From Rhodothermia bacterium (GTDB lineage: Bacteria > Bacteroidota > Rhodothermia > Rhodothermales > JAAAOL01), in assembly GCA_030428385.1 (NCBI GenBank), contig JAUIDY010000021.1, positions 1-63,623 on the forward strand: 63,623 nucleotides of DNA, given 5' to 3'. Numbering within the stretch: the first letter of the stretch is position 1; each line of letters opens with the position of its first letter. Shown here in pieces: positions 52,073-54,019 of this stretch. The translations under genes were made by a program, and so were the position numbers. The notes below the pieces were generated by a model, which was not told where the DNA came from, did not search any database, and worked only from the letters and a program-made list of their open reading frames with translations.

Positions 52073-52102
52073 CAAAAAAAGCTGCCTTGAGCGAGGCAGC
52101 TT
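52073..52102 (-). terminator. Strong terminator of the candidate noncoding RNA
   Basis: Minus strand: AAGCTGCCT and AGGCAGCTT form a 9-bp stem around a 6-nt loop, followed by seven T. On the plus strand the U-tract is missing, so it acts for leftward transcription. Confidence 0.88.
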
Positions 52103-53034
52103 CCGTTGGCGGCATAAAATTCCCGTGACGCGGTGGCCTTTGGTGGTGCGAACCGGAGTTCGTGCCAGCCAAAAGGCCTGTCTCTTACAGCGGATCGCCC
52201 CGGCTCCGAAGAGTCGTGCGGTCCCCGCCTGAGCAACCTGCATTCACTACGTCCCGGTTTCCCGGAGCGCCGTGTCCTCATCCGCATGGGCATCGGATAC
52301 AGGAGGTTGCGGACAGCTAGAGCTTGGTTGTTTCACCCGCGTCAGCGTTTGGTTTCCACGGCACCGCCACCATCCACGAGGGATGGTAAGGGTGATGCTT
52401 CCACCCGGCGAACAGCGTGGCTTCCACGGTTGAGGATGCGTGCCTTGCGGCAGGTATCCCGCTGCGCTTCCGCGTTGCTTCGGGCCCGGCACCGCGCCTT
52501 GCGGCGTGATGCACCGTCCGTCGCCGTACAGCCGTCTCTTTTTGCCCTCGTTGCCGATGGCAAGCAGATCCGTCTGTGAGGTGCGTTGGCTCAACGTCGG
52601 TGCGTTGCCGCACGTCCGTTGGTGCCTCCGCGTCGCACGCGCACGGTTTCTTGTTCGAAAACGGGAACCCGTGTGCCTACGTGCGCCCCTCGTTCTGTCG
52701 CCATCCACGCGCGCCCTCGCCGTGCAAGCACGACAACGTTGCGCATGAAGACCACCCGGCGGTTGCACCGACCTCGCGTTGCTGCACAGCCGCACTGTGC
52801 AGACGCCAACGTCAGGCTTGCGCCGCCGCTGTTTTTGCTATCGCTTCCGCCGAAACGGACGCCACAGCAAGTACAACGGGATCAAGGTTTGCCGCTGTTG
52901 GCTTTCTTTTCCATCGGTTTTGCAACCGCTGGATCATCCAGCCACGCGGGCTGACCTCATGCAGCCCAGAGACTCAGTCGCGTCAAGGAACAGCACCTTT
53001 TTGTATCCGCACGAGGCATCTACCATCAGGCGCT
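52073..53034 (-). ncRNA. Candidate large structured noncoding RNA (~0.96 kb), class unrecognised
   Basis: The interval between a consensus-like promoter (53041-53069) and a strong terminator has no credible protein. The longest minus-strand frame (52247-52795, 182 codons) and the plus-strand frames are Arg/Cys/Pro-rich and match nothing I know. Read on the minus strand it is full of clean hairpins: CTGCACAG / CTGTGCAG (52782-52802), ACCATCC / GGATGGT (52369-52387), GTGCG-GCAA-CGCAC (52600-52613), CGCC-GCAA-GGCG (52495-52506), TGCC-GCAA-GGCA (52441-52452) and CTC-TTCG-GAG (52204-52213). The GNRA and UUCG loops exist only in the minus-strand sense. I find no RNase P, tmRNA, SRP or group I/II intron core motifs. 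An undetected or degraded protein gene remains possible. Confidence 0.6.
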
Positions 53035-53040
53035 GGGACT

Positions 53041-53069
53041 ATTATAATGGCGCAGGGGAGCTTCGTCAA
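53041..53069 (-). promoter_or_regulatory. Near-consensus sigma-70-type promoter for the candidate ncRNA
   Basis: On the minus strand TTGACG (53069-53064), a 17-bp spacer and TATAAT (53046-53041) point leftward; the predicted start is near 53034. The -10 sequence is palindromic (ATTATAAT), but no -35 box exists for the plus direction. Bacteroidota housekeeping promoters often deviate from this consensus, so such a match is notable. Confidence 0.65.
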
Positions 53070-53076
53070 GCACAAG

Positions 53077-53119
53077 TGATCCACAAAGGATCCACAAGAT
53101 ATTCACATAGTCATCCACA
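53077..53119 (+). promoter_or_regulatory. Phased array of four DnaA-box-like 9-mers
   Basis: TGATCCACA (53077), GGATCCACA (53088), ATATTCACA (53099) and TCATCCACA (53111) are all in the same orientation, 11, 11 and 12 bp apart, i.e. about one helical turn. They resemble the DnaA consensus TTATCCACA and lie just upstream of the ncRNA promoter. Confidence 0.5.
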
Positions 53120-53175
53120 TTTTGGAGGGGCGTGGGAAGGGCTATGTGGGAAGAGAGAGGAGCCAAGGGGCGGAC

Positions 53176-53211
53176 AAAAAAGCCCGGTGCTTGCGGAGCG
53201 CCGGGCTTTTT
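53176..53211. terminator. Bidirectional terminator downstream of the rhomboid gene
   Basis: AAAAAAGCCCGG and CCGGGCTTTTT form a strong stem with T-runs on both strands. It probably ends rhomboid transcripts on the minus strand and any rightward transcript from the DnaA-box region. Confidence 0.8.
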
Positions 53212-53389
53212 AATGCCCATATTCTGGTGATGCGACTGAGTGCGCCCGGTCACCGGAGCGCAGGAGAGGCAGCACGAGGTCGCAAGAAGATACGAAGCCT
53301 CGTAAGAGCGTGCAAGCCTCAATAACGGTAATGTGTGCAGCCAGCGTTAAGAAACGGTCATTCTTCGTTTCTGCAATAACGGTAAACGG

Positions 53390-54019
53390 CTACAGGCCGA
53401 TCTGACCCAGCAGGTGCTGCACCACCCAGGGCTCCAGCGCGATGGTCACCAGCACCCCGCCCAGCGCCCCACCCAGATGCGCCTCGTGAGCGATGCCGCC
53501 CACCTTGCCTTGCTCCTGCGCCTGCTTCATGGCATAAATGGAAATGCCCACGTACAGGATGGCAAACAACCAGATCCGCATGGGGATGGCGAAGAAGAGA
53601 TAAATCTGCGCAAAGGGATCGAAGAGGCAGTACGCAAACACCACCCCACTTATGGCCCCCGACGCGCCCACGGCGTTGTATTGCACGTTATCACGCTGAA
53701 ACCAGAACGTGAGCGCGTGTGCCGCCAGTTCGGCCCCGAAGTACAGGATCAAAAAGCCGATGCCGCCCAGCACCGGCTCCAGCGCCGGCCCAAAGAAATA
53801 CAGCGTGAGCATGTTCACCGCCAAGTGTCCGATGCCTACATGCACAAAGCCTGCAGTGATGAAGCGGTAATATTCCTTGTGCTGGATGATGCGCTGTGGC
53901 CGGAAGCCCAGTCGATCGATCAGCGACGGATCTGAAAAAAGCGCATAGCCACTCACCAGCACATTGATCAGCAGCAAGAGCAGCGTCATCGGCGCGCTAT
54001 AAGGGTCAATTCCCATCAT
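53390..54019 (-). CDS. Rhomboid-family intramembrane serine protease
   Basis: 209 aa, six hydrophobic helices. The catalytic serine is in NAVGASGAISG (Ser ~120) and the catalytic histidine in HEAHLGGALGG (His ~181). The FVHVGIGHLAVNM segment with its HxxxN is the usual rhomboid helix 2. It cleaves membrane-spanning substrates in the inner membrane; substrates are unknown. The first two codons are both ATG. The gap downstream (53212-53389) contains a direct repeat CAATAACGGTAA at 53320 and 53374. Confidence 0.93.
   Translation of the reverse strand: MMGIDPYSAPMTLLLLLINVLVSGYALFSDPSLIDRLGFRPQRIIQHKEYYRFITAGFVHVGIGHLAVNMLTLYFFGPALEPVLGGIGFLILYFGAELAAHALTFWFQRDNVQYNAVGASGAISGVVFAYCLFDPFAQIYLFFAIPMRIWLFAILYVGISIYAMKQAQEQGKVGGIAHEAHLGGALGGVLVTIALEPWVVQHLLGQIGL

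Follow-up and report, generated by a model that had tools for sequence, protein, structure and literature searches.

Comparative sequence analysis suggests a two-RNA control locus in Rhodothermales, formed by a large structured noncoding RNA and a complementary small RNA

Introduction

In the RNA I/RNA II system of ColE1, a short RNA recognises the loops of a long structured RNA and alters its fold. In sponges of the SroC/GcvB type, one noncoding RNA base-pairs with another, and the sRNA sponges known so far mostly consist of pieces of messages or of tRNA precursors. The Rhodothermales locus analysed here resembles the ColE1 pair in having a short RNA and loop recognition, the latter predicted from sequence. 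It differs from it in that the short RNA is encoded by a neighbouring gene in the same orientation and not on the opposite strand of its target, that the pairing lies in separated segments, that the locus is chromosomal and that the target has no known output. With the SroC/GcvB type it shares RNA–RNA base pairing, but the partner in Rhodothermales is a large autonomous structured RNA. Only a few noncoding RNAs of such length are known from bacteria, most of them with unsolved functions.

Nearest in kind to the large RNA are the large, ornate bacterial RNAs OLE, ROOL and GOLLD, which likewise measure about 600–800 nt or more, have an elaborate covarying structure, are noncoding and are of unclear function (PMC12286853). 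Kissing loops are a further shared feature, predicted from sequence in the Rhodothermales RNA. ROOL and GOLLD have been reported mainly from phages and prophages (PMC12286853), whereas the Rhodothermales RNA gave no viral-contig match. No OLE, ROOL or GOLLD RNA with a dedicated complementary small-RNA gene alongside was found described in the open-licence literature. CcnA of Caulobacter, a 182 nt RNA encoded in the replication origin, binds the ctrA and gcrA messages (PMC8959179). It is comparable as a noncoding RNA gene with DnaA boxes and loop pairing (predicted in Rhodothermales), but the Rhodothermales locus does not lie at the origin.

Results

Position, ends and strand of the large RNA gene

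The DNA analysed (the window) comprised 63,623 nt of a Rhodothermia bacterium (assembly GCA_030428385.1, contig JAUIDY010000021.1, positions 1 to 63,623). The initial annotation had proposed a complete minus-strand transcription unit for a large noncoding RNA in this window (Table 1). Its promoter was present as placed, with 11 of 12 matches, and its terminator was recovered as a stem at 52104–52077 followed by a T run. Alone, neither signal went beyond chance: 4 kb contained one promoter-like site (1.0 expected) and four terminator-like sites (4.0 expected). The predicted fold of the interval was far more stable than that of shuffles (z −4.6); the opposite strand folded equally well (z −5.0), so folding energy is no proof of strand. 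Since single-genome signals were close to chance and both strands folded alike, the case for the large RNA rests on comparison, and promoter and terminator become convincing because they recur in relatives together with the 5′ motif. On these grounds, and with the covariation described below, the assignment to the minus strand was kept, whereas the tetraloop argument first offered for it is weak. The unit does have its own promoter and terminator, but by itself it is half of a two-RNA locus.

Table 1 Coordinates of the features discussed (positions in the window)
Feature	Position	Strand	Evidence or remark
Large structured noncoding RNA, ~0.96 kb	52073..53034	-	Conserved 5′ motif, covariation and conserved terminator in relatives
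Large-RNA promoter TTGACG-17-TATAAT	53041..53069	-	Same form and same place in most relatives
Large-RNA intrinsic terminator	52073..52104	-	Terminator seen in 39/45 distinct loci
Helix P1, 5′ strand, UGACGCG	52979..52985	-	Minimum-energy fold, pair probability 0.96–1.0
Helix P1, 3′ strand, CGCGUCA	52126..52132	-	Fold of the window
Helix P2, 5′ strand, GUCUCU	52968..52973	-	Pair probability ~0.98
Helix P2, 3′ strand, AGAGAC	52180..52185	-	Fold of the window
Long hairpin of the 3′ domain	52135..52178	-	Consensus helices 24–26 in relatives; also in the window's own fold
Segment A, GCGACUGAG	52973..52981	-	Complement of small-RNA CUCAGUCGC
Segment B, GGGCUGCAUGAGG, hairpin P3, AUGAG in loop	52955..52967	-	Complement of small-RNA 5′ end
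Segment C, UGCCCAU, apical hairpin loop	52286..52292	-	Complement of small-RNA AUGGGCA
Four DnaA-box-like repeats TGTGGAT/TGTGAAT, 11–12 bp apart	53077..53119	-	Upstream of large-RNA promoter
Partner small RNA, ~105 nt, own intrinsic terminator	53175..53280	-	Upstream of large RNA in 41/45 loci
Small-RNA U-run	~53181-53176	-	Its intrinsic terminator
Small-RNA AUGGGCA	53214..53220	-	Complement of segment C
Small-RNA CUCAGUCGC	53232..53240	-	Complement of segment A
Small-RNA 5′ end, ACCUCGUGCUGCC	53268..53280	-	Complement of segment B
Small-RNA −10 element TATCTT	53287..53292	-	Resembles the Bacteroidota TAnnTTTG type
CCGTTATTG box, proximal	53320..53328	-	Small-RNA promoter region
CCGTTATTG box, distal	53374..53382	-	Small-RNA promoter region
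Rhomboid protease gene, usual upstream neighbour, outside the unit	53390..54019	-	Pfam PF01694

Distribution and class of the large RNA

Searched at the DNA level, 40 related genomes showed the 5′ stretch GUUCCUUGACGCGACUGAGUCUCURGGCUGCAUGAGG recurring across the order. The pattern derived from it matched at most once per genome and was confined to Rhodothermales; among 84,980 species genomes it matched 36 places, whose records were labelled only Rhodothermales, Rhodothermia, Rhodothermaceae, Bacteroidetes/Bacteroidota or unnamed bacterium. Roseithermus sacchariphilus, a cultured organism with a complete genome (CP030158.1), is among the carriers. The family occurs as one copy per genome in 10 of the 15 sampled families of the order and spans about 530–980 nt, variable in length with ends and core kept; a usable terminator lies 520–920 nt downstream of the motif in 39 of 45 distinct loci.

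Using cmscan, the interval remained without any Rfam match up to E = 5, as did the large RNA of seven relatives up to E = 1; the covariance models of OLE, ROOL and GOLLD gave no match at E ≤ 5 in the window region or at E ≤ 1 in the seven relatives. RNase P RNA (RF00010) and tmRNA (RF00023), which the initial annotation could not recognise in the interval, were both rejected, the genome's own copies lying on other contigs (C105 and C12, respectively). Its statement that no frame looks like a real protein also held: no reading frame is conserved across relatives, and only 34 of 204 gap lengths were multiples of three, by which a protein-coding gene was rejected. A type I toxin–antitoxin system was rejected on the frame opened by the conserved AUG, which varies from 2 to 193 codons and often reads AUG AGG UAA. 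A phage or mobile element was rejected on the conserved chromosomal neighbour and on the 5′-stretch pattern, for which no match was found in IMG/VR viral contigs. No description of the locus was found in the open-licence papers searched, and Rhodothermus and Salinibacter go unmentioned in the main texts of two GC-IGR surveys (26 and 50 genomes; PMC8632094, PMC11109978). The interval is almost certainly a member of an undescribed family of large structured RNAs, and the original claim of such an RNA is borne out by its single copy per genome, its presence in ten families, its strong covariation and the absence of coding signal and Rfam matches.

Structure of the large RNA

Alignment of ten loci gave a covarying consensus structure of 27 helices and 149 base pairs. 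Covariation in related genomes, suggested earlier as a check, was found as compensatory changes in 64 of these pairs (63–64 double-changed, against 36 expected in shuffles); 0 of 500 shuffles reached 64. Paired cells amounted to 93.4%, compared with 84.5% in shuffles and 40–46% in slid controls. The unconstrained fold of the window itself contained P1, P2 and P3 with its AUGAG loop, as well as the hairpin loop UGCCCAU and the long 3′ hairpin; in this model P1 and P2 close the molecule by joining its 5′ and 3′ ends. P1 was recovered close to the 3′ end in the majority of families, and insertions in P2 of two loci (L006 and L016) are matched on the opposite P2 strand; P1 and P2 were not clear in families f14 and f12. 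An invariant hairpin, CGUCCCGGCG, occupies columns 356–367 of alignment A2 and is conserved in all ten aligned loci.

A second RNA gene upstream

A further RNA gene, also undescribed, immediately precedes the large-RNA promoter at about 53280–53175 in the same orientation; across loci it measures 84–121 nt. Its covariance model matched the window at 53177–53280 with E 5e-12 and found the same locus in ten families; matches above about E = 1e-4, which were terminator-like and often on both strands, were ignored. In families f3, f4, f10, f13 and f15 the model gave nothing convincing. The −10 element resembles the Bacteroidota TAnnTTTG type. The conserved segments of the small RNA are reverse complements of conserved segments of the large RNA, in antiparallel order, and flank a hairpin that varies in sequence. 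From their promoters and terminators we infer that both RNAs are transcribed. Rfam matches to ar35 and BjrC68 were rejected as weak, below the gathering score and located on or around the small-RNA terminator region; one of BjrC68 in the small-RNA end at L013:1310-1363 (31.6 bits against 39) is probably a terminator.

By their distribution, the two RNAs are gained and lost together. In the examined genomes of f3, f4, f10, f13 and f15 the rhomboid gene was present, and neither RNA nor boxes were found beside it. The rhomboid protease was rejected as an obligatory functional partner, as genome G012 carries the RNA pair away from the rhomboid gene. In genome G014 both RNAs share a contig, separated by about 2 kb of foreign sequence; this insert (L131, G014:C39) includes the beginning of an open frame, MGNDLKIRGLRLRNWKNF, that looks AAA-type ATPase-like by eye.

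Pairing between the two RNAs

The small RNA is complementary to GCGACUGAG and GGC(N)GCAUGAG of the large RNA and, in most members, to the UGCCCAU hairpin loop. The trans core, 16 positions compared in 41 loci, has 656 cells, of which 641 are paired; reassignment of partners reached this number in 1 of 2000 trials, in a test that ignores relatedness. Four cells were double-changed against 0.8 expected, a number reached in 5 of 2000 reassignments (relatedness again ignored), and they are carried by three lineages only. L007 has a change from U-A to G-C in segment A (natural pair GCGAUGGAG/CUCCGUCGC), L054 has two from G-C to A-U, one each in segments A and B, and L006 has one from G-C to A-U in segment B. 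Segment B has one internal nucleotide that as a rule is mismatched; in L018 it is paired. Segment A lacks its final base pair in f9, f12 and f14, and in f9 the adjoining pair is lost too.

Segment C showed wobbles and joint absence only, with no compensatory change. The loop UGCCCAU (or CGCCCAU) was present in 34 of 42 large RNAs, with one-base variants in L031 and L061; the loop and the small-RNA AUGGGCA are jointly missing in L014, L018, L019 and L020. L012 has AUGAGCA with no partner detected, and in L011 no loop was detected.

When the 5′-terminal 62 nt of the large RNA were co-folded with the small-RNA body, the median was −22.9 kcal/mol compared with −8.2 kcal/mol for dinucleotide shuffles, and in 33 of 35 loci none of 40 shuffles was as good. 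The whole-length duplex of the small RNA with the large-RNA 5′ region was not significant (median z −0.9), by a method that is uninformative in GC-rich RNA. Conserved complementarity between separate RNA genes with compensatory change, the mark of an antisense regulator and its target, was found here. The changes in three families support real pairing of the two RNAs, which overall is very probable. The predicted hybrid takes in GCGACUGAG, GGC-GCAUGAG and part of the UCUC between them, i.e. strands of inner P1, P2 and P3; because it uses these same strands, binding of the small RNA and closure of the large RNA look mutually exclusive in the model.

Control regions

Within one mismatch of TTATNCACA, a DnaA-box-like repeat was found at 43 of 44 large-RNA promoters, with 79 such boxes in all compared with 4 in shuffles; their density is about 40-fold that of the flanking DNA. 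In the window, the repeats lie at 53119, 53107, 53096 and 53085. We infer from these boxes that DnaA may bind at the large-RNA promoter. A replication origin was rejected on the position of the locus relative to the GC-skew minimum: in G007 the element lies at 193 kb and the skew minimum and dnaA near 0.92 Mb, and in G011 the element lies at 2.78 Mb and dnaA at 2.32 Mb, with a broad, flat skew minimum, so that G011 alone is not decisive. The four-repeat cluster, far from the origin, could be a site of DnaA titration or regulation.

The paired CCGTTATTG boxes of the small-RNA promoter region have gaps that cluster in relatives at about 45, 55, 65 and 75 bp, in steps of roughly one helical turn. 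This phasing, together with the near-confinement of the box pair to this locus in 30 genomes, suggests a dedicated regulator that acts by looping or cooperatively.

Discussion

Proposed mechanism and alternatives

The comparison points to a two-RNA control system in Rhodothermales that had so far gone unrecognised. Antisense invasion and closure of the large RNA being alternatives, we propose that the locus is an antisense-controlled RNA switch in which two noncoding RNAs act on each other, a reading to which we assign a probability of roughly 55%. It builds on the two genes and their conservation, on the structure of the large RNA, on a complementarity that has co-evolved and on a hybrid that overlaps P1–P3, all of them visible in the sequences compared. 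The large RNA would form a domain closed by P1 and P2 that displays the loops AUGAG at its 5′ end and UGCCCAU in its 3′ half. The small RNA, made from a promoter just upstream, would act as its antisense regulator, recognising these two loops as first contacts and then invading the 5′ strand by pairing with GCGACUGAG-(UCUC)-GGC-GCAUGAG, which would open P2, P3 and inner P1. The large RNA would thereby exist in a closed, presumably active form and an open form bound by the small RNA, their balance being set by different signals, DnaA at the large-RNA promoter and another factor at the CCGTTATTG boxes. A more far-reaching version, offered tentatively as a possibility that is probably not the full truth, is a chromosomal two-RNA machine in which a dedicated small antisense RNA, itself under a looped, phased operator, switches the fold of a DnaA-controlled structured RNA of 0.5–1 kb, and by which the replication state would be read into RNA conformation.

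Near-constant adjacency of the two genes, joint loss and co-evolution would also be expected if the RNAs formed one permanent two-piece particle with the small RNA as a structural subunit. This is unlikely, given separate promoters of different type, separate regulatory boxes and a hybrid that competes with the large RNA's own well-supported helices. The small RNA might instead be an effector that represses messenger RNAs by a 5′ seed, with the large RNA as its sponge when DnaA allows transcription. Opposed control of the two promoters would fit such an arrangement, and the complementary segments are the most conserved sequence of a large RNA that otherwise varies widely; yet a sponge has no need of a covarying 27-helix structure, and since the conserved parts of the small RNA, its terminator aside, nearly all find a match in the large RNA, no seed for other targets is apparent. 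We hold this reading, too, to be unlikely. A mere common origin, in which the large RNA is real and the complementarity stems mainly from the small RNA having arisen as an inverted copy of large-RNA ends, without present function, would explain why the small RNA equals the reverse complement of joined large-RNA pieces; it is very unlikely in view of complementarity kept across ten families with compensatory changes and of a small RNA that retains its own promoter, boxes and terminator. Finally, despite the strong cluster of DnaA-box-like repeats, it is extremely unlikely that what is conserved is a control site acting as DNA, such as one for DnaA binding or replication control, with incidental transcription, as base-pair covariation, terminators and promoters fit RNA and the locus lies away from the origin in both G007 and G011, whose skew minima fall near dnaA.

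The antisense-controlled switch is, on present sequence comparisons, the best of the mechanisms considered. A co-evolving small-RNA partner and distinctive boxes give a handle on the function of the large RNA, by genetics and probing together, and a DnaA link to a large RNA, if true, would be a new branch of replication-linked regulation. As to the second regulator, 13 of the 15 exact CCGTTATTG box pairs in 30 genomes were located at the small-RNA locus. The only two pairs away from it, at G019:C49:69206-69268 and G022:C131:11262-11334, are possible further targets of the same regulator.
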